Assembly (NCBI GenBank): GCA_032622095.1
Contig: CP136069.1
Span: forward strand, 3,437,566 to 3,501,565
Reading direction: 5' to 3'
DNA: 64,000 nt
Origin: Siphonodentalium dalli
Lineage: Eukaryota > Mollusca > Scaphopoda > Gadilida > Siphonodentaliidae
Part shown: in pieces, positions 3,548-59,267 of the stretch
Position numbering within the stretch: the stretch's first letter is position 1
Layout of the letters: each line of letters opens with the position of its first letter
The notes under the pieces: model-generated
Database searches by the model: none
Seen by the model: only the letters and a program-made list of their open reading frames with translations
What the model was told of the DNA's origin: nothing
Position numbers and translations under genes: made by a program

Positions 3548-4090
3548 TTAACCCTTTCAGTGCCAAGTCCGATTTTTGTATCAACCCATATTTCCTTGAT
3601 CATTTTTCAATTTTATTGATTATAATAATGTGATACATTGATGGAAAGAGCTCTAAGATCAAAGAAATATGGGTCGATACAAAAATCGGACTTGACAACA
3701 GACTTATTTTGTAGGTTTAGTGCCAGGGAATCTTACGTTTTTTCATGGGCATCAAAATTATTACTATGAATACTTGGTGATAGTTTTGAGTTATAACATG
3801 CCCCTGAGGTTTATCCAGTTTGTTTTTAAATTCGCTATAGCATGCTTAAGCATACCCAAATTATTATTATTTTTTTTAGTTTTTTTTAGGGCCTGGCACT
3901 AAACCTACAAAATAAGTCTGTTAAAGAATATAAGAAAAAATTATTAAAATTGTAAAAAATAATGAAAAATTGTTAGGCCAATGCATTCTCTTATATATGC
4001 GAGGCGACCTATGGTCGACTCGCATATATAAGAGAATGCATTGGCACAGGGTATGGGTTGATACAAAAATCTTGGCACTGAAAGGGTTGA
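3548..4090. mobile_element. TTAA-flanked MITE with ends CCCTTTCAGTGCCAAG (family T2)
   Basis: The left end is TTAA then CCCTTTCAGTGCCAAG, followed by TTTTTGTATCAACCCATA. The right end carries the complement (TATGGGTTGATACAAAAATC, then CTTGGCACTGAAAGGG) and TTGA, a one-base decay of TTAA. The terminal inverted repeat is about 37 bp. A nested inverted pair (ACAGACTTATTTTGTAGG near 3695 and its complement near 3905) and one 69-bp hairpin (3977-4045) lie inside. TTAA plus CCC-starting ends is the piggyBac hallmark; no transposase is present. Confidence 0.75.
3977..4045. repeat. 69-bp hairpin cassette H, copy
   Basis: The arms run GCCAATGCATTCTCTTATAT... and ...ATATAAGAGAATGCATTGGC. Each is 33 bp, with a three-base TAT centre and a single G/A mismatch. 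An AT-rich module containing GTTAAAGAATATAAG precedes it. Confidence 0.9.
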
Positions 4091-4189
4091 AGAATAGTAA
4101 CCTTAATTTTGAGTCCTTTGCTAAGAATGTCTGTACATGTGTCTGTGTGTTCTTCAGGGTGTCCTTCGATAAATTCTCCAGATGACTAC

Positions 4190-5450
4190 TCCGCTCCTGC
4201 GGAAAAATATTAAGGTAACGATCACAAATATATGGATAAAACCTTCATTAAATTCTCCAGGTAACTTCTCCATGCCTATGTAAAAATATTAAGGTAGCAA
4301 TCACAAATATATAGATAAAACCTTCATTAAATTAACCCGGTGACTTCTCCGCGAATGCGGGAAAATATTAAGGTAACGATCACAAATATATAGATAAAAC
4401 CTTCATTAAATTATTCTGGTGACTTCTCCGCGAATGCGGGAAAATATTAAGGTAGCAATCACAAATATATAGATAAAACCTTCATTAAATTATCCTGGTG
4501 AATTCTCCGCGAATGCGGGAAAATATTAAGGTAACGATCACAAATATATAGATAAAACCTTCATTAAATTATCCTGGTGACTTCTCCGCGAATGCGGGAA
4601 AATATTAAGGAAGCAATCACAAATATATAGATAAAACCTTCATTAAATTATTCCGGTGACTTCTCCGCGAATGCGGGAAAATATTAAGGTAGCAATCCCA
4701 AATATATAGATAAAACCTTCATTAAATTATCCTGGTGAATTCTCCGCGAATGCGGGAAAATATTAAGGTAGCAATCACAAATATATAGATAAAACCTTCA
4801 TTAAATTATCCTGGTGAATTCTCCGCGAATGCGGGAAAATATTAAGGTAACGATCACAAATATATAGATAAAACCTTCATTAAATTATCCTGGTGAATTC
4901 TCCGCGAATGCGGGAAAATATTAAGGTAGCAATCACAAATATATAGATAAAACCTTCATTAAATTATCCTGGTGAATTCTTCGCGAATGCGGGAAAATAT
5001 TAAGGTAGCAATCACAAATATATAGATAAAACCTTCATTAAATTATTCCGGTGACTTCTCCGCGAACGCGGGAAAATATTAAGGTAGCAATCCCAAATAT
5101 ATAGATAAAACCTTCATTAAATTATCCTGGTGAATTCTCCGCGAATGCGGGAAAATATTAAGGTAACGATCACAAATATATAGATAGCCTTCACTAAATT
5201 CTCCAGGTGACTTCTCCGTGCCTGCGTAAAACTATTAAGGTGGCGACAATAAATATATAGCCTTCACTAAATTCTCCAGGTGACTTCTCCGCGAATGCGG
5301 GAAAATATTAAGGTAGCAATCATAAATATATAGATAGCCTTCACTAAATTCTCCAGGTGACTTCTCTGTGCCTGCGTAAAACTATTAAGGTGGCGACAAT
5401 AAATATACAGATAAAGTCTTCATTAAATTCTCCATGTGACTTTTCAGGTT
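4190..5450. repeat. Minisatellite, about 79-bp unit, about 15 copies
   Basis: The unit contains TTCTCCGCGAATGCGGG, AAAATATTAAGGTA, CACAAATATATAGATAAAAC and CTTCATTAAATTATCC. Each unit carries a small palindrome, CCGCGAATGCGG. Two variants alternate irregularly (GTAACGATC and GTAGCAATC), and the array edges are more diverged than the middle, as expected of unequal crossover. Confidence 0.95.
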
Positions 5451-5730
5451 CTGTGAACAAATTATATGGATAAACCATAAATTATCCAAGTGACTCCTTG
5501 TGCAAAGATAGATTTTAGCTTTAAAAAATTACAAAGAAAAGGCTGTCAAGTGGACTGGCATATTTGAAGAAAAGTATTTTTGAAGCCCGAATTTGTTCAG
5601 AATTAAGTGATGTGCATCCTAGTGGTCACTCATTCAAAATATTAGAATTAAAAATATTGTCCCCTAAGTCATGTGGTTGCTTCTAGGTATCTGCATGCAT
5701 ATTCATCCATCCATTGGTCCTCGGGCGGCT

Positions 5731-5818
5731 TTAACCCTTTGAGTGCCAGGGGCTGATCTCATCGGCCTTAAACCTACAAAATAAGTCTGTTAAAGAATAT
5801 AAGAATAAATTATTAAAA

Positions 5819-5854
<36 letters not shown>

Positions 5855-5981
5855 TTAGGCCAATTAATGCATTCTCTTATATATGCGAGGCGACCTATGG
5901 TCGACTCGCATATATAAGAGAATGCATTGGCACGGGGTATATGGGTTGATACAAAAATCGACCTGGCACTCAAAGGGTTAA
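5731..5981. mobile_element. TTAA-flanked MITE with ends CCCTTTGAGTGCCAGG, carrying hairpin H
   Basis: Left end TTAACCCTTTGAGTGCCAGG; right end CCTGGCACTCAAAGGGTTAA, a perfect 16-bp inverted repeat with TTAA on both sides. The interior is the AT-rich module, a poly-A run of about 30 (near 5823-5852) and hairpin H. It is related to the 3548-4090 element but has different terminal bases. Confidence 0.8.
5859..5931. repeat. Hairpin cassette H, copy with 4-bp insert in the left arm
   Basis: Same palindrome as at 3977-4045, with four extra bases (GCCAATTAATGC) in the left arm. The centre CGACCTATGGTCG is intact. Confidence 0.85.
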
Positions 5982-6035
5982 CCCATAATGCGCCCCTCAT
6001 TGCCTGAAGCAGATGACACTTTGTACAAGCTGCAT

Positions 6036-6214
6036 GCAGAGTTCAGTCCCCTACACAGGATTTACCGCTGCCAGCACCTACACATAATGAAGCTCCGTGC
6101 AGAGTTCAGTCCCCTACACAGGACTTACCGCTGCCAGCACCTACACATAATGAAGCTCCGTGCAGAGTTCAGTCCCCTACACAGGACTTACCACTGCCAG
6201 CATTTACACATAAT
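6036..6214. repeat. 63-bp tandem repeat, about 2.9 units
   Basis: Units start at about 6036, 6099 and 6162 with GCAGAGTTCAGTCCCCTACA. Because 63 is a multiple of three, an ORF stays open through them, but I see no gene there. Confidence 0.9.
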
Positions 6215-6393
6215 GTGAAGAAATGTCGCATTTATTTATTTGAGACTTTTTTAGGTTACAATACATTCTGCATTATTCTGAGAAACTGAACTGTCCATAT
6301 TCATTTGAAAATCGTCTAGATCAAGACACAATGAATTGTAACTGACAAAACACTTCAATAAAAAATGTTAGATTTAATTAAGAAAATACACAT

Positions 6394-7651
6394 GCCGGCA
6401 GTAGTGCTGGGCGGTATTTCGGTATACCGATTATAATCGGTAAGATTTTCAATACCGTTACCGTTACCGTCATTCTTTTCCATAATCGGTAAACCTTGAA
6501 GACGGTATTATCGCGGTTACATGTCATACAGGCACATTACCGAGTATACTGTGGTTTTCCTTTGTCGGGATACAAAGAAATTACTTCGTTTCTATACACC
6601 GTATTTCATCGAAATCATAATTAAGAGGTAGCGAGTTTGTGTCAGGAGACAGCGTTGTTGTAAATTGGGCTGAGGTAGCTACTAGTGTTGCAGATTCTGT
6701 TTACCAAGTCATCCGCGAAATTGGCGCGAATATATTTCAAGATTTACGTTGTGTACCCCATGCACGTGCCCATCGACAATTTTAAAATGACTAGTCCGTT
6801 TCAATGATTGGCGTGTGCAAGTTTATGCAACGCCCTTTATGTGTATTCATCCCATGTTGCATTATCTTTTAGTTGGAAAAAACTGTTCAATCTTCACTCA
6901 TGTCACTTCTTTCCCCATGTCATTTCCAAACAAAATGTATTCCGTCGCTACCTGGGACAAAACCCAGCCCAACATTATATTGCAAGGTATGATTGCATCA
7001 TTCTGCGCTATTTTTTATCGACCGAATTTATGGGGCAGCTCATTATTTCAGGGGTGTTTCGAGTGGGAATAATTGATCACATTCATAAACCGGGATTTAA
7101 AAGTATGATTATAATAATTCAACGGGAAGTCAATAATAGTTCTAGAAGTTAAATACTTTGGAAGTAATACACTTTATTTCCAGGCATTTAATAAAATCAT
7201 TGTACTTATTCTTAAGTTATTCACACCCGGCGGAACATTCCAATATCAACATCACAGCACGTGCTCTGCAAGTCGGCACTGTCAGTGGGGGATTGTTTCA
7301 AAGCTCTTGGGTGTATCCGGCTTCGCTGAATGATGCTTGCATTAAGTTGCATAAATCGCAATTATTACCTGTATTTAAGATCAGCTCATGAATCCATGCT
7401 TGCAGATAATGATACATTCATTGATTGCAATCCATAATTTAATAAAACGGAGCGTAAATTTCCTTATTTTATGTAATCTGTAGCGATTAGATTTTCCTCC
7501 ATAAACAGTCGATCTGTGCACCAAACGAATGCTACTAAATGGGGGTTTTAAGGGATTAGTTTAAATAATCGGTAATACTGTATACCGCGGTATTATTTTA
7601 GGATTACCGCGGTATTTTTATGCTTAAATACCGCCCAGCACTGGCCGGCAG
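6394..7651. mobile_element. hAT-type non-autonomous transposon with perfect 8-bp target duplication
   Basis: The element body is 6402-7643. The left end is TAGTGCTGGGCGGTATTTC. The right end is the complement of CAGTGCTGGGCGGTATTTA. GCCGGCAG occurs directly on each side (6394-6401 and 7644-7651), giving the 8-bp target duplication typical of hAT elements. Subterminal sequence on both sides is rich in ATACCG/CGGTAT words, which may be transposase sites. The interior has only short ORFs (up to 114 codons) without recognisable hAT transposase motifs, so the copy is non-autonomous. Confidence 0.9.
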
Positions 7652-8184
7652 CGTTCAGAGATCGCATAGCGAGGGGACTGAACTCTGTTTTGCAGCTTGA
7701 ACTTAGTAGTGCATGCTGCTACCTGTTTGGGGCTCCATGTGGGTTACATTAAATTATTTGATATTATATGAACCTTAAATTGTCCTTAATGGCTAATTAA
7801 CCCATAAGGTGCCCCTCACTGCCTAGACCAGACAACATGCTGCTCAGAGCTGTTCAGTTTCACGGATTCCATGAGACTCCCGGATAACCACAGCAATTCA
7901 GCAAATACGGATAACCCCAATTTCTCCCGGATTCAGAAAAACCCGGCATTCAAACTCCACAAAAACCATGTTATTTTTTGCGGGGATTTACCCATGACAG
8001 GGATTTCCGGTACCGTAAATACTCACACATTAACATTCACAGAATTTAGGGTCGGTAACTTTTGATGTTCCCTCTGATTGAAGACTGATCAGTGGTGAAC
8101 TGTGACTGATATTAATTGATTTTCACACTCTGGTGAAGTCACATGCACGTATAAAGGGTGTTGTTATAGTATACAATATGTATA

Positions 8185-10119: not shown

Positions 10120-10563
10120 CAATTTAGTCAAATGCCAAGTAAATCTGTATTTTTCATGTAATTATTTCACAATACATGCAGTTGAGTTAAATACATATTA
10201 TGTTCATGTACTTGTTCGGGTACATGAAACTGATAAGTTAGTAATCAGACACTATGTCAATTGGAGGAATGCAACATTCTACTGACACCACCGAAAATCT
10301 GAAGCAAATCAACCGCACCACTCCATAGAAAACATCGTATGAATTACACTCAATATTTACATCTTGATTCGGGATGCATCTATCGGCAATACACTAACGA
10401 AAATGATTTCACCATCAAGTGTCACTGTGTTTAAATAATACATAAGAATGACGGTGTGTGTTGTAAATTTAGATATAATATTTGTAAAAATAACTAATTT
10501 GAACAAGATTATTCTCCATTTTTATTTGATCACCTACTGGAGTGTTTCACATCACTTTAAACT
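10120..10563. repeat. Dispersed element R, copy 2 (uninterrupted)
   Basis: Shares with copy 1 the phrases CATGAAACTGATAAGTTAGT, GTCAATTGGAGGAATG, AAAATGATTTCACCATC and the end GTGTTTCACATCACTTTAA. This copy shows the continuous sequence across the point where copy 1 is interrupted. Upstream it has ATATTATGTTCATGTACTTG, close to the unit of the 52.2-53.9 kb satellite. Confidence 0.65.
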
Positions 10564-10640
10564 TCAACCAGATTTTTCATCATTTTTTTTTAATAAATGT
10601 TTCTTACATTTTTTAGGACATAAAATAAAAAACATCCGTT

Positions 10641-10724
10641 ACCCTGCAGGGAGCCCCACACATATATAGAAGCATATAGAAGAGTGTCGTCTGCTCATGT
10701 TTGTCTGGGGCTCTGTATGGGTGA
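10641..10724. repeat. Second hairpin cassette H2, copy
   Basis: GCAGGGAGCCCCACACATAT on the left and TGTTTGTCTGGGGCTC on the right form an imperfect stem around AAGAGTGTCGTCTGC. The same cassette is at about 16668-16750, 18152-18240 and 18355-18440, always beside the same AT-rich linker that accompanies hairpin H. Confidence 0.75.
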
Positions 10725-10783
10725 AATTATAAAATTGTTAAAGAATACAAGAAAAAATTAATAAAATTGGAAAAAATTGTTAG

Positions 10784-10852
10784 GCCAATGCATTCTCTTA
10801 TATATGCGAGGCGACCTATGGTGGACTCGCATATATAAGAGAATGCATTGGC
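10784..10852. repeat. Hairpin cassette H, copy
   Basis: A 69-bp palindrome with one extra change in the centre (GGTGGAC for GGTCGAC). The AT linker GTTAAAGAATACAAGAAAAA lies just upstream, followed by hairpin H and CACAGGGTA. Confidence 0.9.
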
Positions 10853-10911
10853 ACAGGGTAAAATTTCAACCAGAATAAAGCAGATTATCCTGAAGCCAAA
10901 TAAAGTTCAAC

Positions 10912-11037: not shown

Positions 11038-11095
11038 AGTACTATTACTATTAAACCTTTCATTACTGGTGCTTCCTGAAATTTTGTGAAAACCC

Positions 11096-11165
11096 TGTGC
11101 CAATGCATTCAATTATATATGCAAATCTCTCATATGGACCCTCACATATAGCAGAGAATACAATT
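11096..11165. repeat. Diverged hairpin H relic
   Basis: TGCCAATGCATTCAATTATA followed by TCTCATATGGACCCTCACAT shows the cassette layout with many substitutions. It is older than the near-identical copies. Confidence 0.5.
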
Positions 11166-11949
11166 ATATTTAAAATGTACCTTGACGTAAATTTTTAGAG
11201 AATGCACTGACACAGAGTCTTTAATGCTCCACCAGCACAGCTCCCGTTATGAAATGGGTAAACACCTAAGAAAACCCTGTTTATACTCTGCCTGTCACTT
11301 ACTAAAAAGGAAGAATTCCATTGCATACTTTTATAACTGAATGCAGGGATAATCCATCCGGTAAGGGATAAGCACAGACTTTTATTCACTTTATTTATTC
11401 TTTCTCATCTCTGAATAACATGTGAGGTATTAACTTCTGTGAGTTCTACTATTAATTTTATTCAGTGTATACCTTCTTTCTCTAGTTATTATTAGAATAA
11501 TAATTAATTATTCCCCAATCCGCGATCGCACTTCGTTCCGGTGCCCGGTATCGAACAAATATCCGGAAATTATACTTCGTTTTCATCTGAATTCCTGTAA
11601 CATACTGGTATTGGAATATCAGCGTTATCTCACGATAGATCACCATAGTCTTCCAGAGTAGGTTAGTTTCAGGGAGCAAGGGGAGTAATTCTCCATGAAT
11701 AACTTGCGGGGTATAACCTTCTCTGAGCTTTACTATTTAATATTATTAGTATACAAACCTTCTTTCTCTTCCCTGAATAACTTGCGTGGTATTAACTTCT
11801 GTGAGTTGTTCAGGCTTTCATCATCGGACTGAGTGAGGCTTCTGAAACTCTTCTGCTGTTCCGGAGTAAAATCGTGATGCGGAGTACAATCGTGATGCAC
11901 ATTAAGGATAATTTTGAAGATTAGTTAAACATATTATTAACCAATTAGA
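11166..11949. other. Intronic stretch without recognised gene
   Basis: I see only short ORFs and a local near-duplication of 'TAACTTCTGTGAGTT' with neighbouring 'CTTCTTTCTCT' (about 11410-11480 and 11755-11800). No element boundaries were clear. Confidence 0.5.
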
Positions 11950-12060: not shown

Positions 12061-12074
12061 TAAAAAAAAACGGC

Positions 12075-13855: not shown

Positions 13856-13968
13856 AACATGTTGTGGAGTTCAGAACAAATAACATGTTTTCTACGGTAT
13901 AATCCAGTTTATTGTCACAATTATGATATTTGATTACCTTTACTGGTGGTTTTATGTGAGCTGGTCAT

Positions 13969-15901: not shown

Positions 15902-16301
15902 TTAACCCTTTACCCAACAAACTGGCCAAAACTGGCCAAATAAAGCTTCAACAGCCTAAAATATCTTCCGTCTGTCTCAATAGAACCATACAAATATGGA
16001 TATCATTGGAACCGGCTCCTTGACCACATTGTGATAGTTACAGTTATGCCATGTGCCAATGCATTCTCTTATATATGCGAGTCGACCATAGGTCGCCTCG
16101 CATATATAAGAGAATGCATTGGCCTAAAAAAAATCTTTTTTTAACACTTTTTACCATTTTTTCTTACATTCTTTAACAATTTTATAATTTTTAATGTGTT
16201 AAGCCAATGCATTCTCTTATATATGTGAGGCGACCTATGGTCGACTCGCATATATAAGAGAATGCATTGGCACAGGGCCCTTCTGTTGGGTAAAGGGTTA
16301 A
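15902..16301 (-). mobile_element. TTAA MITE family T1 (ends CCCTTTACCCAACA), copy A, 400 bp
   Basis: TTAACCCTTTACCCAACA at the left and TGTTGGGTAAAGGGTTAA at the right make a perfect terminal inverted repeat with TTAA duplications. Inside are a unique arm (AAGCTTCAACAGCC, GGTCAAGGAGCCGGTTCC-type), hairpin H in one orientation (16055-16123), the AT linker, and hairpin H in the other orientation (16203-16271). It is oriented opposite to copies B, D, E and F. The ends fit piggyBac-type elements (inference). Confidence 0.9.
16055..16271. repeat. Two hairpin H cassettes in opposite orientation (16055-16123, 16203-16271)
   Basis: The first has the centre GTCGACCATAGGTCGCC, the second GGCGACCTATGGTCGAC, so the single arm mismatch marks opposite orientations. 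They are separated by the AT linker with CATTCTTTAACAATTTTAT. Confidence 0.9.
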
Positions 16302-16537
16302 CCTGTATTTTGTGCCAGTAAACCCACACCAAATTTCATTCCATTCAGTTCATTACGACTAATTCCTTACTACACCAAGTCTACTCTGTCCACAACAGCT
16401 TGGGATATCGGTCGGGTTGATGCTGTTTTGGACAGAGTCCAGTCCTGTTACTCTTCTATAACAGACTTTTTGCCCAGAATCATGGGTGGGAGTTATCTTA
16501 CTGGTATGGCTTCGAAGTCGGGATTTTTTTACCCTGT

Positions 16538-16606
16538 GCCAATGCATTCTCTTATATATGCGAGTCGACCATAGGTCGCCTCGCATATATAAGAGAATGC
16601 ATTGGC
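16538..16606. repeat. Hairpin cassette H, copy
   Basis: Centre GTCGACCATAGGTCGCC; preceded by ACCCTGT and followed by CTAACAATTTTTTACAATTT, the complement of the linker found at 18480. Confidence 0.9.
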
Positions 16607-16667
16607 CTAACAATTTTTTACAATTTTAATAATTTTTTCTTGTATTCTTTAACAATTTTATAATTTC

Positions 16668-16750
16668 ACCCATACAGAGCCCCAGACAAACATGAGCAGA
16701 CGGCACTCTTCTATATGCTTCTATATATGTGTGGGGCTCCCTGCAGGGTA
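16668..16750. repeat. Hairpin cassette H2, copy (inverted orientation)
   Basis: CAGAGCCCCAGACAAACATG through TGTGTGGGGCTCCCTGCAGG, the reverse complement of the 10641-10724 copy. Confidence 0.8.
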
Positions 16751-16819
16751 ATGGATGTTTTTATTTTATGTCCTAAAAATTGTAAGAAATTAAAAAAAAA
16801 AATGATAAAAAATTGTTAG

Positions 16820-16888
16820 GCCAATGCATTCTCTTATATATGCGAGGCGACCTATGGTTGACTCGCATATATAAGAGAATGCATTGGC
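16820..16888. repeat. Hairpin cassette H, copy
   Basis: Centre GGCGACCTATGGTTGAC (one base changed). Together with 16538-16606 it brackets the H2 copy, giving an H-H2-H triple. Confidence 0.9.
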
Positions 16889-17442
16889 ACAGGGTAAAAA
16901 AAATCCCGACTTATGGGTGGGAGTTATCTTGCCTGTATGTTTTGGAATACTTCAAATGAATGGTTTATCAACATAGAGGGCAGCCTTTCCCAAGCATGAT
17001 ATCAAACATGCACATATCAGAATCAAACATGCATATATCAGAGGTCTGATGAATGTCAATGATTTATAAGTGATCAAAGCCTTGTTTTCCTGAGAATTTT
17101 AATTTGTCATTCTATCAGAAAATGAATGGAAACAATATATTTATGACCGTATCATCACTATACCTTTTTCTATCATGGTAATTAAATGATATATCATTTT
17201 GAAAACAGATTAATTGCCAACATGTCAGATGATTAATCACATTCAGAGGTTCACATGTATGCCCGAGTTCCACTTGTAAATGTAGTAAGTCATTTCAATG
17301 AAAGTCTGTTACAGAAGAGTAAAGGGACGGGACTTGATCCAAAACAGCATCAACCCAACTGTTGTGGACCGAGAAGATTTGGTATAATCAGGTACATGCA
17401 TGTTTTACAAGCATAAAAAAATTCTGTTGTAAAATATGTTAA

Positions 17443-18151: not shown

Positions 18152-18440
18152 ATAACCCTGCAGGGAGCCCCACACATACATGGAAGCATATAGAAGAGTG
18201 TCGTCTGCTCATGTTTGTCTGGGGCTCCGTATGGGTGAAATTATAAATTTGTTAAAGAATATAAGAAAAAAATATTAAAATTGTAAAAAATAATAACAAA
18301 TGATAACAAGAGCACGCCGTAAATTTTTAGGACGTAAAATAAAAAACATCCATTACCCTGCAGGGAGCCCCACACATATATAGAAGCATATAGAAGAGTG
18401 TCGTCTGCTCATGTTTGTCTGGGGCTCTGTGTGGGTGAAA
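18152..18440. repeat. Two hairpin H2 cassettes in direct tandem
   Basis: CTGCAGGGAGCCCCACACAT starts at about 18158 and again at 18359. Each copy runs to GGGGCTC(C/T)GTRTGGGTGAAA and is followed by the AT linker TTGTTAAAGAATAYAAGAAA. The repeat unit is about 200 bp. Confidence 0.85.
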
Positions 18441-18497
18441 TTATAAAATTGTTAAAGAATACAAGAAAAAATTATTAAAATTGTAAAAAATTGTTAG

Positions 18498-18566
18498 GCC
18501 AATGCATTCTCTTATATATGCGAGGCGACCTATGGTCGACTCGCATATATAAGAGAATGCATTGGC
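18498..18566. repeat. Hairpin cassette H, copy
   Basis: A canonical 69-bp palindrome immediately after the second H2-linker unit. Confidence 0.92.
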
Positions 18567-18579
18567 ACAGGGTATAAAA

Positions 18580-19236: not shown

Positions 19237-19305
19237 GCCAATGCATTCTCTTATAAATGCGAGGCGACCTATGGTCGACTCGCATATATAAGAGAATGCA
19301 TTGGC
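19237..19305. repeat. Hairpin cassette H, copy
   Basis: Palindrome with TTATAAATGCGAG for TTATATATGCGAG in the left arm; the centre is canonical. Confidence 0.9.
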
Positions 19306-20695: not shown

Positions 20696-20881
20696 AACCA
20701 TGCAAGGCCAAAAATATGCAAAAGCATGAGTGCCTGTGTATTTATATTTTATTAATTGGACCCACGCCAACGAAGCATTGCACCTACGCAATTTCTTCAG
20801 GTCGAATTTCAGTTGCCCATGACCATTATTTCCCAATCAGGGATTTGTAAAAAGCTTCCTCAATTTTAGTAGAAAACCCTG

Positions 20882-20928
20882 TGCCAATGCATGTCGCCTT
20901 GCATATATAAGAGAATGCATTGGGCAAA
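20882..20928. repeat. Hairpin H with internal deletion
   Basis: GTGCCAATGCATGTCGCCTT then GCATATATAAGAGAATGCAT; most of the left arm is missing. AT linker copies with GTTAAAGAATGTAAGAAAAA follow to 21130, and another left arm alone is at 21130-21158. Confidence 0.75.
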
Positions 20929-21234
20929 CAAATTTTATATTATTTTTTATAATTGTTAAAGAATGTAAGAAAAAAAATTAAAAAAATTGTTAAAAGAATG
21001 TGTAACAAATGATAAAAAATAAAAATTAAGAAAAAAAAATTAAAAAAAATGATAAAATTGTTAAAGAATATAAGAAAAAATGATAAAAATTGTTATAGAA
21101 TGTAAGAAAAAATATTAAAAAATTGTTAGGCCAATGCATTCTCTTATATATGCGAGGCATTGCACCTACACAATTTCAGTTGCAACATGATCATTATTTC
21201 CCAATCAGATATTAGTAAAAAGTTAGTTCATAGA

Positions 21235-22560: not shown

Positions 22561-23395
22561 GTATATCTCCCCTATTATTCACACTGTATTTAAACGATTT
22601 ACAAGAATATTTACTTGATAACGACGTAGTGGGCTTAAAAACAATAGATCTAGAAATAGAGAATCGACTCAACTGTTATGTAAAAATATTCATGATTCTT
22701 TACGCCGATGATACGACAATCATGGCGGAAACCCCAAAAGTATTACAACAACAATTGGATCTCTTTGAAAAATATTGCAATAAATGGAAATTAACAGTGA
22801 ATATCGAGAAAACAAAAATTATCAACCTATCGAAGACCAGTCTTCCAAAAAAGACAAAATTTCTGTTCAAAGGTAGAAGAATCCAAACAGTAAATAAATT
22901 TAATTATCTTAGAATAATATTTTGCAAATCTGGAAATCTGCAAAAAAGGCTCTGGCAGAAAAAGCCACCAAAGCCATGTACTCAGTTATTGGAAAATCGC
23001 GGAAGCACTGTCTCTCGATCAAAACCCAACTTGATTTGTTCGACCTGCACGTTATGCCAATTTTATTATATGGTTGCGAGATTTGGGGTTTTGGTAACAA
23101 TGATATCTTGGAAAAAGTTCATCGAAAATTTATCAAGCATATTCTTAATCTCAGGCCATCTACTCCCAACTTTATGCTGTATGGGGAATGTGGGAGGCTA
23201 CCAATTGACGTGTATATAAACACGAGAATAATAAAATATTGGTGTAAAATTATGAACAGTGCGGAGGTAAGATATCCCAGAATACTTCTGAAATTAGCAC
23301 AGACTATGTTTGATATCAACGCGAATAACTTCCCTTTGTTACACAGAATCCATGATTTATTAGAACACTGTAACCAATTACATGCATGGCACATG
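22560..23395 (+). pseudogene. Inverted middle segment of the LINE reverse transcriptase (YADD)
   Basis: On the plus strand: GISPLLFTLYLNDLQEYL at 22560-22615, then ILYADDTTIM (the catalytic YADD box) near 22700, and a connection domain MPILLYGCEIWGFGNNDILE with one frameshift near 22920. It ends with RIHDLLEHCNQLHAWH near 23395. It begins exactly where the minus-strand part stops at GVRQ. Confidence 0.85.
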
Positions 23396-23434
23396 GAGCG
23401 CATACCGGATACTGGTCAACTCGTTTCTGTCAAC

Positions 23435-24172
23435 TTGTCTGACACCAGCATGACAGGGGAAGTAGATGGATGTACGTCCATCTGCTTGAACACAGGATTT
23501 TATATGAGTATACATGTTGGTAATCACAGTGAATATTTTCCCATTGATCCCAGATTTCAAAAGTTTCATCCAAAGTCCTTGCCTCCACACCATGTCGAAT
23601 GCTTTTTGGAAGTCAATGAACGCGCACAATAATTTCTTGTTCAATTTTCTACTTATCTCAAATAATAGATTTAAAATGAAAATGTTGTCGGTAGTCGAAT
23701 AATATTTCCTGAAACCGGACTGACTTTCTGAGATAATGTCAAAATCATCAGTGAATTGTCCCAAACGATTGGATAAGATCTTAGTAAACAGTTTACCAAA
23801 ACAACTCAGAAGGGTGATCGGCCTATAATTACTGGGGTCGGTTGAGTCTCCCTTATTTTTGTAAAGAGGTACGATAGTACCTATCACCCAGTCTGCCGGT
23901 ATTATCCCTGTGTTTAATACTATGTTAAACAATTTGCAATATATGTCAATGAAAACATCAGAAGATGCTTTTATGTAGTCATTGAAAATAAGATCATGGC
24001 CGCTTGATTTGTTATTTTTGAGACCATTTATAGCTTGTCTTATTTCCTCTTCGGTGATCGGTCGGTTCAGGTCGGGATTCGCGTCTACTTTAAATAGTTC
24101 AGTTATATCCCGTGCGATTTATTTCATCAAAATTTTCCTGATCAAGTATGTCAAACACATTTTATACTGAGA
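23435..24172 (-). pseudogene. LINE reverse transcriptase N-terminal part (fingers/palm), 5' truncated
   Basis: Minus strand: DITELFKVDANPDL, EEEIRQAINGLKNNKSSGHD, GIIPADWVIGTIVPLYKNKG, SNYRPITLLSCFGKLFTKIL, FIDFQKAFDMVWRQGLW and then HAGVRQ at 23446-23435. These are RT motifs 0-3 in the correct order. About 40 bp of unrelated filler separates GVRQ from the inverted segment. The endonuclease domain is absent. Confidence 0.88.
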
Positions 24173-24440: not shown

Positions 24441-24469
24441 AGCATATGACATGGTTAAACCTCACCTTA

Positions 24470-24686
24470 TACAGTAATGCCCTAAGTAATCGACCTCTTA
24501 ACCAAAGCAGAATTATAGGTAACTTTTCAGGACTTAGTTGGAAATATGGCTTGTTGCCATTCATTGGAAAGCTTTGGCCGAGAGCTTTCCGATGAATGGC
24601 AACAAGCCATATTTCCGACTAATTCCTGAAAAGTTACCCATAATTCTGCTTTGGTAAAGAGGTCGATTACTTTGAGCATTACTGTA
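24470..24686. mobile_element. Family P MITE, complete copy
   Basis: TACAGTAATGCCCTAAGTAA to AGCATTACTGTA with both arms; subfamily with CTCTTAACCAAAGCAG instead of CCTTAACCACAGCAG. It lies 41 bp downstream (minus sense) of the exon 9 donor. Confidence 0.88.
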
Positions 24687-24726
24687 TATATATATGACAT
24701 ACACAGTGACTATGGTTAAACCTCAC

Positions 24727-24958: not shown

Positions 24959-25357
24959 TTAACCCTTTACCCAACAGAAGGGCCCTGTGCCAATGCATTC
25001 TCTTATATATGCGAGTCGACCATAGGTCGCCTCGAATATATAAGAGAATGCATTGGCTTAACACATTAAAAATTATAAAATTGTTAAAGAATGTAAGAAA
25101 AAATGGTAAAAAGTGTTAAAACAAGATTTTTTTAGGCCAATGCATTCTCTTATATATGCGAGGCGACCTATGGTCGACTCGCATATATAAGAGAATGCAT
25201 TGGCACAGGGCATAACTGTAACCATCACAATGTGGTCAATGAGCCGGTTCCAATGATATCCATATTTGTATGGTTCTATTGAGACAGACCGGAGATTTTT
25301 TAGGCTGTTGAAGCTTTATTTGGCCGGTTTTGGCCGGTTTGTTGGGTAAAGGGTTAA
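24959..25357 (+). mobile_element. TTAA MITE family T1, copy B, 399 bp
   Basis: Perfect ends TTAACCCTTTACCCAACA and TGTTGGGTAAAGGGTTAA. It contains hairpin H at 24989-25057 and 25136-25204 in opposite orientations, the AT linker, and the unique arm CATAACTGTAACCATCACAA, GAGCCGGTTCCAATGATATC. It lies 32 bp upstream of the exon 9 acceptor. Confidence 0.92.
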
Positions 25358-25487: not shown

Positions 25488-26027
25488 AGCAGAATTATGG
25501 GTAACTTTTCAGGATTTAACCCTTTACCCAACAAACCGGCCAAATAAAGCTTCAACAGCCTGATATATCTTCGGTCTGTCTCAATAGAACCATACAAATA
25601 TGCATATCATTGGAACCGGCTCCTTGACCACATTGTGATAGTTACAGTTATGCCCTGTGCCAATGCATTCTCTTATATATGCGAGTCGACCATAGGTCGC
25701 CTCGCATATATAAGAGAATGCATTGGCCTAAAAAAAATCTTTTTTTAACACTTTTTACCATTTTTTCTTACATTCTTTAACAATTTTATAATTTTTAATG
25801 TGTTATATAAGCCTATGGTCGACTCGCATATATAAGAGAATGCATTGGCACATGGCCCTTCTGTTGGGTAAAGGGTTAAGTGGAATATGGCTTGTTGCCA
25901 TTCGTCTGAAAGTTCTCAGTGAGAGCTTTCCGATGAATGGCAACAAGTCATATTTCCGACTAAATCCTGAAAAGTTACCCATAATTCTCCTGTGGTTAAG
26001 GAGTCGATTATTTAGGGCATTACTGTC
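25488..26027. mobile_element. Family P MITE split by TTAA MITE copy C
   Basis: CAGCAGAATTATGGGTAACT-TTTCAGGAT precedes the T1 insertion, and GTGGAATATGGCTTGTTGCC follows it, continuing through the centre to GGGCATTACTG. Joining across one TTAA gives GGATTTAAGTGGAATATGG, a slightly mutated P arm (consensus GGATTTAGTCGGAAATATGG). Confidence 0.85.
25516..25879 (-). mobile_element. TTAA MITE family T1, copy C, 364 bp, nested in P
   Basis: Same ends as copy B, but in the opposite orientation. Hairpin H is complete at 25659-25727, while the second hairpin has lost its left arm (25810-25850). Confidence 0.9.
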
Positions 26028-28365: not shown

Positions 28366-28583
28366 TATAGTAATGCTCTAAGTAATCGACCCCTTAACCA
28401 CAGCAGAATTATGGGTAACTTTTCAGGATTTAGTCTGAAATATGGCTTGTTGTCATTCATAGGAAAGCTCTCCGACAGCTGCTTTCCGATGAATGGCAAC
28501 AAGCCATATTTCCGACTAAATCCTGAAAAGTTACCCATAATTCTGCTGTGGTTAAGGGGTCGATTACTTAGAGCATTACTGTA
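28366..28583. mobile_element. Family P MITE, complete copy
   Basis: TATAGTAATGCTCTAAGTAA to AGAGCATTACTGTA; both arms are present and almost perfectly complementary, centre GAAAGCTCTCCGACAGCTGC. Confidence 0.88.
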
Positions 28584-31272: not shown

Positions 31273-31341
31273 CTGGAAGTAATTAATGCAAATTTATAGT
31301 ACATCATTACCCTTGCGCTGGTGCAACAATAAAGACCCTGT

Positions 31342-31631
31342 GCCAATGCATTCTCTTATATATGTGAGTCGACCATAGGTCGCCTCGCATATATAAGAGA
31401 ATGCATTGGCCTAACAATTTTTTATCCTTTTTTATAAATTTTTCTTACATTCTTTAACAATTTTTATAATTTTTTCTTGCATTCTTTAACAATTTTTATT
31501 ATTTTTTATCATTATTTCTTACATTCTTTAACAATTATAAAAAATAATATAAAATTTTCTAGGCCAATGAATTCTCTTATATTTGCGAGGTGACCTATGG
31601 CCGACTCGCATATATAAGAGCATGCATTGGC
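31342..31631. repeat. Two hairpin H cassettes (31342-31410, 31562-31631) with AT linker between
   Basis: The two copies are in opposite orientation, separated by about 150 bp of linker with repeated CATTCTTTAACAATTTTTAT. The second copy is diverged (AATGAATTCTCTTATATTTG). The arrangement resembles the core of a T1 MITE but lacks its TTAA ends. Confidence 0.85.
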
Positions 31632-31692
31632 ACAGGGTTTTCACAAAATTTCAGAGTTAACTCTTTCATGACTGGAGTTTCCTGAAATTTTT

Positions 31693-31810: not shown

Positions 31811-31921
31811 ATCATTACCCTTTGATGATTAAATAGGACCCCCTCCCACAAATGACTGAATAGGAATCTGCAGGGACATTTTAATCTTACCCTTACACTA
31901 GTGCAACATTAAATACCCTGT

Positions 31922-31990
31922 GCCAATGCATTCTCTTATATATGCGATTCGACCATAGGTCGCCTCGCATATATAAGAGAATGCATTGGC
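31922..31990. repeat. Hairpin cassette H inserted between P fragments
   Basis: Centre ATTCGACCATAGGTCGCC. It is followed after nine bases by a P right arm (31999-32058), so the order P centre - spacer - H - P right arm suggests that one P copy was broken up. Confidence 0.85.
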
Positions 31991-31998
31991 CTAACAAG

Positions 31999-32908: not shown

Positions 32909-33098
32909 TACAGTAAGGCCCTAAATAATTGACTCCTTAACCACAGCAGAATTATGGGTAATTTTTCAGGATTTGGTCGGAAATATGGCTTGCTGCCATT
33001 CATCGGAAAGCTCTCACTGAGAGCTTTCCGATGAATGGCAACAAGCCATATTTCCGACTAAATCCTGAAAAGTTACCCATAATTATGCTGTGGTTAAC
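32909..33098. mobile_element. Family P MITE, right terminus replaced
   Basis: TACAGTAAGGCCCTAAATAA through the centre to TTATGCTGTGGTTAA. The right terminus is replaced by CCCTTTCCCAACAGCACC, which looks like a degenerate T1 terminus. Confidence 0.8.
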
Positions 33099-33694: not shown

Positions 33695-34095
33695 TTAACC
33701 CTTTACCCAACAGAAGGGCCCTGTGCCAATGCATTCTCTTATATATGCGAGTCGACCATAGGTCGCCTCGCATATATAAGAGAATGCATTGGCTTAACAC
33801 ATTAAAAATTATAAAATTGTTAAAGAATGTAAGAAAAAATGATAAAAAGTGCTAAAAAAAAGATTTTTTTTAGGCCAATGCATTCTCTTATATATGCGAG
33901 GCGACCTATGGTCGACTCGCATATATAAGAGAATGCATTGGCACAGGGCATAACTGTAACCATCACAATGTGGTCAATGAGCCGGTTCCAATGATATCCA
34001 TATTTGTATGGTTCTATTGAGACAGACCGAAGATATTTTAGGCTGTTGAAGCTTTATTTGGCCGTTTTTGGCCGGTTTGTTGGGTAAAGGGTTAA
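33695..34095 (+). mobile_element. TTAA MITE family T1, copy D, 401 bp
   Basis: Perfect TTAA-flanked ends as in copy B; hairpins at 33725-33793 and 33874-33942 in opposite orientation. Near-identical to copies B and F, suggesting recent spread. Confidence 0.92.
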
Positions 34096-51199: not shown

Positions 51200-51213
51200 C
51201 TGTCAATATTCAT

Positions 51214-51781: not shown

Positions 51782-52156
51782 TTAACCCTTTACCAAACAG
51801 AACGGCCCTGTGCCAATGCATTCTCTTATATATGCGAGGCGACCTATATAAGAGAATGCATTGGCTTAACACATAAAAAATTATAAAATTGTTAAAGAAT
51901 GTAAGAAAAAGTGGTAAAAAAAGATTTTTTTTAGGCCAATGCATTCTCTTATATATGCGAGGCAACCTATGGTCGACTCGCATATATAAGAGAATGCATT
52001 GGCACAGGGCATAACTGTAACCATCACAATGTGGTCAACGAACCGGTTCCAATGATATCCATATTTGTATGGTTTTATTGAGACAGACCGAAGATAATTT
52101 AGGCTGTTGAAGCTTTATTTGGGCGTTTCTGGCCGGTTTGTTGGGTAAAGGGTTAA
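51782..52156 (+). mobile_element. TTAA MITE family T1, copy E, 375 bp
   Basis: TTAACCCTTTACCAAACAGA (one change) to TGTTGGGTAAAGGGTTAA. The first hairpin has lost its centre (51812-51865: CGAGGCGACCTATATAAGAG); the second (51935-52003) is complete. Confidence 0.9.
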
Positions 52157-52221
52157 AATATATAATTTTTATCAATAAATAGTAAAACTTTCTCTATAAA
52201 CCAGTAAAACCATTGAAATTA

Positions 52222-53945
52222 AAGAAATATTATGTACTTATTAAAGATATATTATGTACTTATTAAAGATATATTATGTACTTATTAAAGATATATTATG
52301 TACTTATTAAAGATATATTATGTACTTATTAAAGATATATTATGTACTTATTAAAGATATATTATGTACTTATTACAGATATATTATGTACTTATTAAAG
52401 ATATATTATGTACTTATTAAAGATATATTATGTACTTATTAAAGATATATTATGTACTTATTAAAGATATATTATGTATTCAGGTGTAAGTTAGTATTCA
52501 CTCTAAAGATATATTATGTACTTATTAAAGATATATTATGTACTTATTAAAGATATACTATGTACTTATTAAAGATATATTATGTATTCAGGTGTAAGTT
52601 AGTATACACTCTAAAGATATATTATGTACTTATTAAAGATATATTATGTATTCAGGTGTAAGTTAGTATACACTCTAAAGATATATTATGTACTTATTAA
52701 AGATATATTATGTATTCAGGTGTAAGTTAGTATTCACTCTAAAGATATATTATGTACTTATTAAAGATATATTATGTACTTATTAAAGATATATTATGTG
52801 CTTATTAAAGATATATCATGTACTTATTAAAGATATATTATGTACTTATTCAAGATATATTATGTACTTATTAAAGATATATTATGTACTTATTCAAGAT
52901 ATATTATGTATTCAGGTGTAAGTTAGTATACACTCTAAAGATATATTATGTACTTATTAAAGATATATTATGTACTTATTAAAGATATATTATGTACTTA
53001 TTAAAGATATATTATGTACTTATTAAAGATATATTATGTACTTATTAAAGATATATTATGTACTTATTAAAGATATATTATGTACTTATTCAAGATATAT
53101 TATGTACTTATTAAAGATATATTATGTACTTATTCAAGATATATTATGTATTCAGGTGTAAGTTAGTATACACTCTAAAGATATATTATGTACTTATTAA
53201 AGATATATTATGTACTTATTAAAGATATATTATGTATTCAGGTGTAAGTTAGTATTCACTCAAAAGATATATTATGTACTTATTAAAGATATATTATGTA
53301 CTTATTATAGATATATTATGTACTTATTAAAGATATATTATGTACTTATTAAAGATATATTATGTACTTATTAAAGATATATTATGTGCTTATTAAAGAT
53401 ATATTATGTACTTATTAAAGATATATTATGTACTTATTAAAGATATATTATGTACTTATTAAAGATATATTATGTACTTATTAAAGATATATTATGTACT
53501 TATTAAAGATATATTATGTATTCAGGTGTAAGTTAGTATTCACTCTAAAGATATATTATGTACTTATTAAAGATATATTATGTACTTATTAAAGATATAT
53601 TATGTACTTATTACAGATATATTATGTACTTATTAAAGATATATTATGTACTTATTAAAGATATATTATGTACTTATTAAAGATATATTATGTACTTATT
53701 ACAGATATATTATGTACTTATTAAAGATATATTATGTACTTATTAAAGATATATTATGTACTTATTAAAGATATATTATGTACTTATTACAGATATATTA
53801 TGTACTTATTAAAGATATATTATGTACTTATTAAAGATATATTATGTACTTATTAAAGATATATTATGTACTTATTAAAGATATATTATGTACTTATTAA
53901 AGATATATTATGTACTTATTAAAGATATATTATGTGCTTATTCAG
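52222..53945. repeat. 22-bp satellite, about 78 units, with a higher-order variant
   Basis: The unit is AAAGATATATTATGTACTTA-TT. About eight times the run is interrupted by GTATTCAGGTGTAAGTTAGT-A, then CACTCT, which is derived from the start of element R (53938 onward: TTCAGGTGCATGAAACGAGT). The array therefore grew out of the R copy at its right edge. Non-coding. Confidence 0.97.
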
Positions 53946-54470: not shown

Positions 54471-54529
54471 CTTTTTGAAGTCTGACGTTTTGATTTGTTC
54501 TGATTTGAAATCTTCTTAGTTTTCGTTAC
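54471..54529 (-). CDS. Exon 3 of the large minus-strand gene (59 bp)
   Basis: The acceptor is TCTTGTATTTTAAG at 54530 after a TTATTTTTTTTTATC tract, the donor AAAAG|GTAATA at 54471/54470. It encodes VTKTKKISNQNKSKRQTSK and two bases of the Ser codon finished by exon 4. Phase 0 in, matching the end of exon 2. It has no Met and could not be found by ORF length; phase agreement on both sides is the main support. Confidence 0.82.
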
Positions 54530-54926: not shown

Positions 54927-56443
54927 GGGTGAATATCTGAAAACTGTACAATTTGATGTTACTACCATTGGCCCTATAATTACAGAATTGTGTGCAACGG
55001 GAGTAAACCAAATAATATTTTTTCCAGGTGACATCATATTTATAATGAATTTCAGGCAAAAACCTGGATCAATTTTGAGCTGTTGGATTTTTACAGAGCC
55101 AACTTGGGGCCATGTCATGAAATTGCTGAATGTTACTTTTCAACATTCAACACTACATAGATCATTTTTTTCCTCAAAATATAAGATAAATTCAACATAT
55201 TCAATCTTATTTGAGTCCATGAAACATGAACATAACAACTATAGGTGGAAGATGGACTTTCTTCTTTCAAACTTTAAAATATAGACCACATTGCACCTGT
55301 TACCAATTTTTGTGTCACTCCTGTTACCAAGAGTATAACAAGGCATTACACTAGGGTGTAGAGTAGCCTTCTTGAGAAACCTGCCACCAGAGAGAAGTTC
55401 ATTAAATAGGTAATCCCAACAAAAGTTCAAAAGGCGGTGATTTGAAATCATTTCTGCAGACCGGAGCACATTGCTGAACAAATGAAGAGAGTAGGTTAAT
55501 TGTTTGTCACTCCTGTTACCGCAATATCATTTCTTTCCATCATTTCCCATTTATCAGGAATATATGTTTTATATACTATATTGAGTCTTTTGTGCAAATC
55601 ATAAGTCATTTGTTATCAAATCCTGGAACATTTTTCGAAATTTTCTATAAACTACCATATATGTCACTCCTGTTACTGTCACTCCTGTTACTTTTTTGGT
55701 AACAGGAGTGACAGTAACAGGAGTGACAGATATGTGCAACAAACAGTTATTGCCATCACCCCTTTTACTGGCCAGTGTTTGTCCATGTAGATCAAGAAGA
55801 TAGGAATTCAATATAAGCCATTTAAAAAAAAAAACTTATAACAACATTGTAAAAACCAGGTGTGTCACTCCTGTTACCAAAATGTCACTCCTGTTACCAA
55901 TGTCACTCCTGTTACCAGCGCATATTTCCATTTTGCTAAAACAATACTCACCCAAAGAAAACATTTATTATTATAATGGGATTGATACAAAGTGTAGACA
56001 CATATGCATATGTGATCATCTGGGAACTCTTGAGTTCATGGCCTACAGAGTAATCAGTTTTGCACTTTTATGCAAGAAATATGCGAATTCACCCAGCGTA
56101 TAGGGATTTTAAACATATTTACTATGATGAGCTTATTCAAGTTTAATTATTTCCTGGAAGTAACAAAAGGTAATAACAATAAATACATTTTAGTTGGGTG
56201 AAATGGCCGCACTTGGTGTAAGCTGATTGTTGTTTGTTAGTAACAGGAGTGACATGTTTTACTACCTACCTTGAGTGAGTCATGTTGCCATGGCAATGGG
56301 AATAAAATTCCAGCATGCCGAAGCAAATCCTAATTCATGGTAAGTCATCAGGTTCAACATGGAAATGTTTTTTTATGCGAATTTGAACTATGAATTTCGA
56401 GCAATGCAATCCTCCAAATTGTACAGTTTTCAGATATTCACCC
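54927..56443. mobile_element. 1.5-kb element with 29-bp perfect inverted ends and a repeated 15-16-bp word
   Basis: GGGTGAATATCTGAAAACTG-TACAATTTG at the left is perfectly inverted at 56415-56443. AGAA flanks both sides (54923-54926, 56444-56447), a candidate 4-bp duplication. Inside, TGTCACTCCTGTTACC or its complement occurs about ten times, at about 55312, 55506, 55662-55729 (two inverted pairs), 55863-55917 (three in tandem) and 56239. A plus-strand ORF of 98 codons (54988-55284) has no motif I recognise. Confidence 0.8.
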
Positions 56444-57234
56444 AGAAACATCCAGTTTTCTAGCGATAGACGTCTCCATGGGACGGCCCTTAGATTTTGT
56501 CTTCAAAATGATGATGAGAGTATTAAAGGGGCATGCATTCAGACTCTTTATGCAGTACATTTTCGGATAATGTTATGAAATGTTCTCAATGTCTTCATTT
56601 TCCTGATATAAACAGTATTCGTCGTTGAAAACTTTCCTACGTCAGTTTCGTATCGGAAGTCTCACAATTTAATTTGAAATTGTGCCGAGCGACGTATATA
56701 TATATATCGATTAGCTGGGCAAATAATCATGCAACGATGATATGAGAGGATAACTATATGGCTTTTGACTGAAACGGGAATTATCATAAGCGGGTACAAG
56801 CAAATACCGATTTTCCACGAGCGGCTTCATATAATGTGTTCAGTCAAAAGCCGTAGGTTTCCTTTTTATTATATGCGGTTTCGTGATTTTGATTTACAAT
56901 TATTGCTGTCAGGCGACTGTTTTGACAAATTAATTGTAGATGAAAACGAATCGGCTGATCGCCAATTGAATGACTCGTCTCTTGCTCATAGATAAAACCG
57001 TATACCCGAAGCTCGATATCGCTATGTAACGTGCATTCCCATCAGAGATCAGTATGGGCCAATCGCCATCTTAAAAGTATAGATAATTTACGTCATCGAT
57101 AGCAACGCACTACGAAAAACAAATAACCCCAACATATTCCCGATACAGTTACTAAAATGTTGTTTTGTACCTCTACTGACTAATGTTACATGAGCACATT
57201 ATTTTGAGCATATACTATGTCATTTAATAAATAA

Positions 57235-57910
57235 TTAAGCTTAAGTGCAATAAGGAATTAAGCTTAAGCACAATAAGGAATCACTAATTGCGCTTAAGCG
57301 CAATAAGAATATTCGTTATGATACACAATGATATATTCCTTATTGCGCTTAAGCGCAATATGATCTTTTCTTATTGTGCTTAAGCTCGATTAGATTTTCC
57401 CGTATTGCGCTTAAGTGCAATTAGAGATTCCTTATTGCGCTTAAGCTAAATAAGACGTTCCTTATTGCACTTAAGCGCAATTACATCTCTGGCTCCTCAT
57501 CAGTATTGCGCTTAAGCACAATTAATATCTCCCTCATGAGATCACCCCTCTGTGCAAATAGTAGAATCCGAATAGGCCTATGTGTGGACAGTCACCAGGT
57601 GCACCCATTGCACTATGGACTACACCATTTGAATTACAGGGTGGTTATGTAATGTGGCTAATTGTGTTTGAGGGCAATAAGGCAGATTCATTTTTAATTC
57701 CACTTAAGCCCAATTAGCTCTTATTGCATTTAAGTGCAATAAGGTATATTCCTTATTGCACTTTAAAATTGCAATTAGATATTCCTTTTTGCGCTTGAAT
57801 GCAATAAAATATTCATTATTGCAATTAGATATTTCCTTATTGTGTGCTTAAGCACAATCAGATCTTCCCTTATTGCGCTTAAGTGCAATAAGAGATTACT
57901 TATTGCGCTA
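57235..57910. repeat. Array of TTGCGCTTAAGCGCAA palindromes
   Basis: About fifteen variants of CCTTATTGCGCTTAAGCGCA-ATAAG, centred on CTTAAG and spaced roughly 30-40 bp, over two blocks (57235-57535 and 57690-57910). Each unit is itself a near-perfect palindrome, unlike ordinary minisatellites. Confidence 0.9.
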
Positions 57911-58350
57911 TAAGATGCATAATCCGAATTAACGATCGTAAATTACTATTTCCTTGGCTTCGGTGGTCAAATATTTGATACGAATCGAGGAACCCACTCA
58001 TCTAAGTTCAGAGTTATTTTTGGAATCTATTATTTTTCACTACCGATCATTTTTAGTGGCCCAGTAAAAGGTCGACGAGAAGACGGTCTCGGACCAAATT
58101 GCGGATGAAGATGGATAACTCTGAAATCAAGTGGCTTTTTGTGTCAAATAATTGACAAACCGGCAAAATTTCATTGAACAAAATGTTGATAAATAACAGG
58201 TTTTGGGCAATTTTGTATGTAGTTCACTGATTAGCATTATTTATGGCCAATTAATCGATTCTGATAACTGGAGCAGCATTTTAAAAAAAACGTTGTTATT
58301 TTTGGAATCTGATAAAATGGGGACCATCGAATCGGATTGAGCACCTTTAA
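57911..58350. mobile_element. TTAA MITE family T4, diverged copy
   Basis: The right end GAATCGGATTGAGCACCTTTAA is intact. The left end is decayed, but AAATTACTATTTCCTTGGCT and CGAGGAACCCACTCATC follow as in the other copies. Confidence 0.6.
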
Positions 58351-58867
58351 GCTCAATTATTTATTAAATGTCAATTTGGATTCCCACATACATGTACATG
58401 TATGTTTGGTGTTTTTAATAAAGTACCTCAAGATATTATAGGAAAATATAAAAACATCGCATCAAAATAAACACCATTGACGTTGAAGATCTGTTGTAGT
58501 ATAAGATACTAATTCGTTGTACTTAGTCAATCATTATAGGACAATTTTCCGTCACGTAGAAAGGTCGTGAAGCCAGCAAAATGAAGCAATTAACTGGATT
58601 ACGGTAAACATTTATCCGGAATGCTGAAATTGTGCGTGTCGTGAATCGGAACACTCCGAAAACAGAATCGGAACGTATGGTAGTGTTACTTTGAAGGCAT
58701 TATGTCAATTAAGTTAAAATAGCGTATTTTGATCAACTGTATTTTTAAAGTAACGATGGGTTGTTTGCGGATACACATAAGCAATTTGTTCTACAAAACA
58801 TTATATCTTTCGCTTCGAAATTCACATTTGTACAACTTTATGTAGACTAAAAGTAAAGTTTTTTTTA

Positions 58868-59267
58868 TTAACCCTTTACCCAACAGAAGGGCCCTGTGCC
58901 AATGCATTCTCTTATATATGCGAGTCGACCATAGGTCGCCTCGCATATATAAGAGAATGCATTGGCTTAACACATTAAAAATTATAAAATTGTTAAAGAA
59001 TGTAAGAAAAAATGGTAAAAAGTGTTAAAAAAATATTTTTTTTAGGCCAATGCATTCTCTTATATATGCGAGGCGACCTATGGTCGACTCGCATATATAA
59101 GAGAATGCATTGGCACAGGGCATAACTGTAACTATCACAATGTGGTCAAGGAGCCGGTTTCAATGATATCCATATTTGTATGGTTCTATTGAGACAGACC
59201 TAAGATATTTTAGGCTGTTGAAGCTTTATTTGGCCGGTTTTGGCCGGTTTGTTGGGTAAAGGGTTAA
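58868..59267 (+). mobile_element. TTAA MITE family T1, copy F, 400 bp, 8 bp from a splice donor
   Basis: Perfect TTAA-flanked ends. Hairpins at 58898-58966 and 59046-59114 in opposite orientation. Its right TTAA ends at 59267, and the exon 2 donor GT is at 59275-59274, so only GTAAGGCA of the intron precedes the element on the minus strand. Confidence 0.93.

Follow-up and report, generated by a model that had tools for sequence, protein, structure and literature searches.

The closest precedent for the repeat described here, a 69-bp near-palindromic hairpin that recurs along 64,000 bp of the genome of the scaphopod Siphonodentalium dalli (contig CP136069.1, positions 3,437,566 to 3,501,565; hereafter the window), is found in the coral miniature inverted-repeat transposable elements (MITEs) called CMITEs. 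According to the coral report (PMC2872659), piggyBac elements are recognised by a CC[C/T]T motif at the tip together with duplication of TTAA, and divergence between MITE families is typically greater in the interior than at the tips. CMITEs resemble the S. dalli elements in their TTAA duplications, in tips of 13-14 bp that start with CCCTTT in five of six families, in their tandem arrays, and in having families with different tips around a common core whose conservation exceeds that of the tips, as in the families A, B, and D described below; the authors raised, as speculation, the ideas that the core is important in transposition and that it might permit cross-mobilisation. CMITEs are, however, elements of ~100 bp with a 75-base core and ~1,600 copies, whereas the S. 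dalli elements carry a 69-bp near-palindrome, often twice per element, and their genome holds 123,074 hairpin centres (the cores are likened by description, not by sequence); the strings “hairpin” and “palindrom” have no occurrence in the coral text.

Other described systems offer partial likenesses. The ends of piggyBac also combine a TTAA target with a palindromic internal repeat near the tip, which is bound by a dimer of the transposase cysteine-rich domain, but that repeat is 19 bp long, whereas here a full 69-bp hairpin lies in gene-less elements (again likened by description, not by sequence; PMC7351741). The pearl-type MITEs of bivalves are likewise small and modular, and one of them, DTC84, has a conserved palindrome near a repeat junction; they differ in carrying satellite-like tandem repeats, and “TTAA” has no occurrence in the text on them (PMC5139131). 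T2-MITE, of the Kolobok type, shares the TTAA target and the long-lived MITE families, but has a purine-purine (RR) terminal sequence (AGGRR in T2-MITE; PMC6004289), whereas the tips here begin with CCC, and a Kolobok assignment was rejected on this ground; a Helitron-type 3′ hairpin was also dropped, since TTAA ends fit. Finally, template switching at imperfect palindromes alters both arms in a paired manner and corrects mispairs from the opposite arm, both relevant below, but it was studied in RNA genes, whereas very many copies of one near-palindrome are present here (PMC8794818). Among the titles and abstract openings in the literature searched, we found no match for a 69-bp hairpin core in TTAA MITEs.

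The hairpin is very probably a core inside non-autonomous piggyBac-like MITEs that insert at TTAA. A preliminary description of the window had presented it as a cassette; it is not free-standing but forms part of larger elements, with TTAA bounds lying outside the hairpins in the six elements that we assign to family A (Table 1). All 18 positions given in that description were recovered, and we added two near-full copies, at 5863 (left edge altered) and 31563 (five changes). Among these 20 near-full copies, ten equal the consensus, eight have one difference, one has three (its left edge being upset by a small insertion), and one has five. The proposed layout of 33-nt arms around a TAT or ATA centre holds, and so do the conserved G/A mismatch (a mispair at arm position 28 in 20/20 copies) and the direction that it was said to give: the mispair faces the same way in every copy, with the arm GAGGCGACC on the inner side and the arm GGTCGACTC adjoining an outer tract, which reads ACAGGG in 18 copies and has one-base variants in the other two (ACGGGG at 5863, ACATGG at 16055). 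About ten fragments or decayed hairpins lie in the window besides the near-full copies. The exact 27-base arm had no match in either viral_contigs or genome_contigs.

The six family A elements (364-401 bp) align end to end, have TTAA on both sides (6/6) with differing sequence beyond, and end in tips CCCTTTACCCAACA, with a single changed base in one of the 12 tips (left tip of 51782-52156). They contain two hairpins in opposed orientation, which in the four undamaged copies lie at distances of 26 bp and 149 bp from the respective ends; these four copies are 96.8-98.0% alike over the whole element. Pairs of hairpins 147-149 bp apart in the preliminary description are thus the two hairpins of one family A element. 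Family B elements carry a single hairpin 41-46 bp from the right end, behind tips CCCTTTGAGTGCC or CCCTTTCAGTGCC, and in the old family D element at 61806-62128 the hairpins are 39-45 bp from the ends; a further family D copy, at locus L006, has a left end that is not an intact TTAA. The tips of families A, B, and D differ, and the hairpin core is common to all three. As for the hallmarks of piggyBac-like MITEs, the TTAA duplication is present in family A and in the B element at 5731-5981, and with one-base deviations in the B element at 3548-4090 and in the D element; tips of 12-19 bp with CC[C/T]T are present in family A (CCCTTTACCCAACA) and in family B (CCCTTTGAGTGCCAGG). In the window and the loci L001-L030, with repeats of the same stretch removed, we found 12 elements that have a TTAA pair, matching tips, and hairpin arms (those of L001 and L002, separated by 11 kb, possibly represent a tandem copy). 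Wherever the tip-side hairpin is whole, a hairpin stands 26-46 bp from a TTAA end. The bounded elements are short (238-543 bp), and no transposase domain was found in the scanned frames of the window (6/6 of those of at least 150 aa, and 10 of 19 stop-to-stop frames).

The genome has at least 128 matches to the piggyBac transposase domain (PF13843), some of them two rows of one gene, and we examined 40 of these matches (L031-L070) with flanks of 1.5-2.5 kb on each side. One (L053) lies in a 3,413-bp piggyBac element with TTAA and tips CCCTTTATCTGC that match at 12/12 positions, so CCCTTT tips do belong to piggyBac elements in this genome. At another (L067), the sequence TTAACCCTTTACCCATCA, which is like the family A end in 17 of 18 letters, stands upstream of a 680-codon transposase frame.

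The genome-wide search proposed in the preliminary description, run with a centre pattern that has six free positions, gave 61,484 + 61,590 = 123,074 occurrences in 2,226,750,531 bases (~1 per 18 kb); the reversed pattern, used as the control, gave 0, which excludes chance. The window is enriched, with 14 exact matches to the centre pattern vs 3.5 predicted from the genome average. Some hairpins are carried in large tandem arrays together with the MITE: on contig C1, pairs recur every ~11,175 bp at 837459-915868 and every ~14,558 bp at 742230-771528, and in another array, at 94237244-94292483, one hairpin variant recurs every ~7.9 kb in eight rows.

The preliminary description had traced the conserved stem and mismatch either to a very recent master copy or to a selected structure. 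Spread by a mobile element is borne out (TTAA MITEs with 123,074 centres), and selection for the mispair is not, as pairing-restoring changes show no depletion and one of them occurs in excess. Perfect pairing in an otherwise consensus centre was found in 722 cases (193 with G:C and 529 with T:A), or 0.6% of the 123,074. For the remaining changes, bases were split by hand from the first 100 listed at each position, and each base has a single control position, that for the G lying in a different context. The mispair A has 297 other changes (61 G and 39 T among the first 100 listed), and a control A in the same GAC context has 305 changes (12 C, 61 G, and 27 T among the first 100); scaled, the mispair A compares with the control A as ~181 vs ~186 to G, 116 vs 82 to T, and 193 vs ~37 to C. 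At the A, pairing is thus restored more often than the control predicts: the A-to-C change is ~5 times commoner than at the one matched control A (share test, p = 3e-8). The mispair G has 936 other changes (86 A and 14 C among the first 100 listed), and the control G has 1,225 (69 A, 27 T, and 4 C among the first 100). Its G-to-T excess is weaker (p = 0.067, or 0.0036 with the eight-row tandem array collapsed), and G-to-C is also raised (~131 vs 49), which indicates that the contexts of the mispair G and the control G differ. Selection against perfect pairing was therefore rejected as the reason why the mispair persists, since the paired versions are rare but not depleted; the mispair looks inherited rather than protected, and its loss does not look selected against. 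Three processes could each yield the perfect palindromes: arm-templated correction, exchange or deletion involving the two opposed hairpins within an element, and amplification of a few corrected copies. The hairpin fragment at 51812 is an example of a pairing-type base at the mispair, C replacing A in the outer arm, together with a 15-base loss in which the inner partner was deleted.

We also checked if the palindrome itself is kept. The compensatory stem changes for which the preliminary description proposed a test were not seen among the window copies: eight single changes each add a mispair, and none is matched on the other arm. An older branch does differ on both arms. In the decayed family D hairpin at 61855, the inner stem CTCCC/GGGAG replaces CGACC/GGTCG, with the same G/A mispair, so the mispair probably predates the divergence of the two branches. 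The exact version of this inner stem with both arms changed occurs 1,981 times in the genome, vs 37 times (26 + 11) with one arm changed. This two-base change is linked on the two arms, and it may be a single template-switch event inherited by all copies rather than proof of selection. Among 10 copies outside family A, hairpin divergence is 2.9% vs 29% in the adjoining 56 bases, and in seven of them 3.2% vs 22%, the spacer values being inflated because some spacers are different segments. Within family A, 4 of 134 hairpin columns vary vs 28 of 262 elsewhere (p = 0.006), with four hairpin columns and one spacer column at deletion edges left out. The hairpin decays in old copies. As judged from the sequence, constraint on the palindrome itself is possible, given the low divergence despite differing spacers and tips and the older branch that changed both arms.

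We consider it somewhat better than an even bet that the hairpin is a conserved subterminal near-palindromic core of piggyBac-like TTAA MITEs that works as a cis site; the narrower claim, that the palindrome has a cis-acting role in mobilisation, is made by analogy and is tentative, at rather less than even. Like the 19-bp internal repeats of piggyBac, the palindrome would be a site, close to the tip of an element, where a transposase or some helper protein binds as a dimer, and it would be needed for mobilisation. Copies without a hairpin would leave fewer descendants, which would hold the core constant while spacers and tips drift or get swapped. The mispair, present before the old and young branches split, would have been carried along, not maintained, and one arm would occasionally be rewritten from the other, by a template switch or by exchange between the two hairpins of an element.

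Several observations weigh against a core that acts in cis. At L067, a further 3 kb of sequence still yielded no right end to match the left one, and the tips of the 2,537-bp piggyBac element at L060 (CACGTTGACTGC, 12/12 matching) show that not all piggyBac tips here start with CCC. The full arm, at up to three mismatches, was absent from all 20 transposase loci L031-L050, and 14-base arm pieces, sought over L031-L070, occurred only in L048, L059, L060, and L069 and were recognisable only in L060, where the hairpin lies outside the bounded piggyBac element, in a neighbouring MITE. The absence of a hairpin inside transposase-bearing elements, within the 1.5-2.5 kb flanks, counts against those transposases needing it. 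Families A and B carry a hairpin near one end only, and tips TTAACCCTTT stand in the window with no hairpin behind them (at 13968, with one changed base, and at 33094; these are candidate ends of whole elements). At 10573-10864, the family C copy is flanked by a 10-bp direct repeat, TTCAACCAGA, in place of TTAA ends; when random 40-mer pairs were drawn 2000 times, 6 draws gave a shared word this long, and the repeat suggests either a second insertion route or a chance repeat. With all columns included, moreover, the comparison within family A becomes 8/138 vs 29/263 (p = 0.10).

That last result also fits a reading in which the hairpin is a neutral passenger, an internal piece of a recently spread MITE group that looks conserved through youth and that nothing binds. 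The 10 identical copies among the 20 in the window and the closeness of the undamaged family A copies (96.8-98.0%) point to youth, and the uncompensated single changes in the window and the undepleted pairing-restoring changes agree with it; however, one and the same hairpin is found with different tips and with spacers that are 22-29% apart (in an alignment partly of different segments), and in the older branch a paired change left the palindrome in place (1,981 vs 37). We regard this reading as somewhat unlikely. Slightly less likely again is a reading in which the hairpin is an exchangeable, tip-independent mobilisation signal that would spread with any piggyBac-like tips, would have colonised several MITE families, and would have its pairing renewed by arm-to-arm copying.

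Copies could also be kept alike by conversion if the hairpin with its short flanks (TTGTTAG...ACAGGGTA, ~84 bp) were itself a mobile or recombining cassette that insertion or ectopic exchange had moved from one MITE family to another. The same core does stand beside different sequence at 19237 and 31922, the stretches 31913-31997 and 3970-4054 are 98.8% identical over 85 bp, and the 10-bp direct repeat surrounds a family C copy, but no target duplication hugs the core in families A, B, or D (by eye), and the decayed D element at 61806-62128 already has two hairpins, which makes the layout old; we think such a cassette distinctly improbable. It is very improbable that transcripts of the hairpin form a 33-bp stem feeding small interfering RNA or microRNA pathways: the predicted RNA fold is strong (3960-4054, -55.7 kcal/mol, z = -11.5, 0/200 shuffles as good), but the loop has only three bases, an Rfam scan of the window at gathering scores gave no match, and the single changes are uncompensated. 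Least probable of all, and scarcely to be expected, is an assembly effect, with very abundant repeats made too uniform by consensus polishing. Reads could have been mispiled, given how extremely common the core is, and the hairpin is steadier than its flanks; old copies nevertheless remain diverged, and many variants survive.

Table 1. Hairpin-bearing elements, cores, and fragments in the 64,000-bp window (coordinates are those of the window).
Feature	Position	Strand	Details
Family A MITE	24959-25357	+	399 bp, TTAA both sides; hairpins 24989-25057, 25136-25204
Family A MITE	33695-34095	+	401 bp; hairpins 33725-33793, 33874-33942
Family A MITE	58868-59267	+	400 bp; hairpins 58898-58966, 59046-59114
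Family A MITE	15902-16301	-	400 bp; hairpins 16055-16123, 16203-16271
Family A MITE	51782-52156	+	375 bp; left hairpin (from 51812) with 15-base deletion and altered mispair base; right hairpin (51935-52003) almost intact
Family A MITE	25516-25879	-	364 bp; hairpin 25659-25727 intact, second partly deleted
Family B element	3548-4090	+	543 bp; TTAA left, TTGA right; single hairpin 3977-4045; tips CCCTTTCAGTGCCAAG
Family B element	5731-5981	+	251 bp; TTAA both sides; single hairpin 5863-5931; tips CCCTTTGAGTGCCAGG
Old family D element	61806-62128	+	TCAA left, TTAA right; two decayed hairpins; in the left one, inner stem of the older type (CTCCC/GGGAG) and again the G/A mispair
Old family D, left end	11051-11180	+	TTAAACCTTTCATTACTGG; decayed hairpin at 11099
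D-like double-hairpin core	31307-31638	+	hairpins 31342-31410, 31563-31631
Single hairpin next to D-like left tip	31922-31990	-	
Family C double-hairpin element	16524-16902	+	hairpins 16538-16606, 16820-16888; search for TTAA ends negative
Family C copy	10573-10864	+	one hairpin 10784-10852; 10-bp direct repeats TTCAACCAGA at 10563-10572 and 10865-10874
Family C fragments	18155-18577	+	hairpin 18498-18566
Single hairpin	19237-19305	+	without the usual spacer on the inner side
Double-hairpin core	20870-21165	+	both hairpins partly deleted

Around the family C double-hairpin element (16482-16950), an 18-bp direct repeat ATGGGTGGGAGTTATCTT stands on both sides, outside an inverted AAGTCGGGAT stretch. 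Just past one family A element there is an array of ~79 copies of a 22-bp AT-rich unit (52218-53942). A separate sequence of ~100 bp is found between TTAAs in three copies (62125-62225, 63542-63642, and 63678-63776); it begins TTAA(A)CTACCCTTAT, has GAGCCCC...GGGGCTCC inside, and its right end resembles the family D tips by eye. The window also contains long inverted repeats that are free of the hairpin (2688-2870, 24468-24688, 28366-28583, and 32937-33097), with arms of 80-106 nt that are 91-96% complementary and 1-12 nt apart, and matches to the reverse transcriptase domain RVT_1 at 22629-23219 and 23378-23932, in opposite orientations.

In S. dalli, as in the coral CMITEs, families have their interior in common and differ at the tips, a pattern relevant to the way in which elements lacking genes borrow transposases. 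The more than 120,000 copies with one marked mispair also make it possible to quantify the frequency with which one arm of a palindrome is rewritten from the other in a genome, and if the hairpin is indeed an exchangeable signal, this genome would be a natural assay of template-switch correction.

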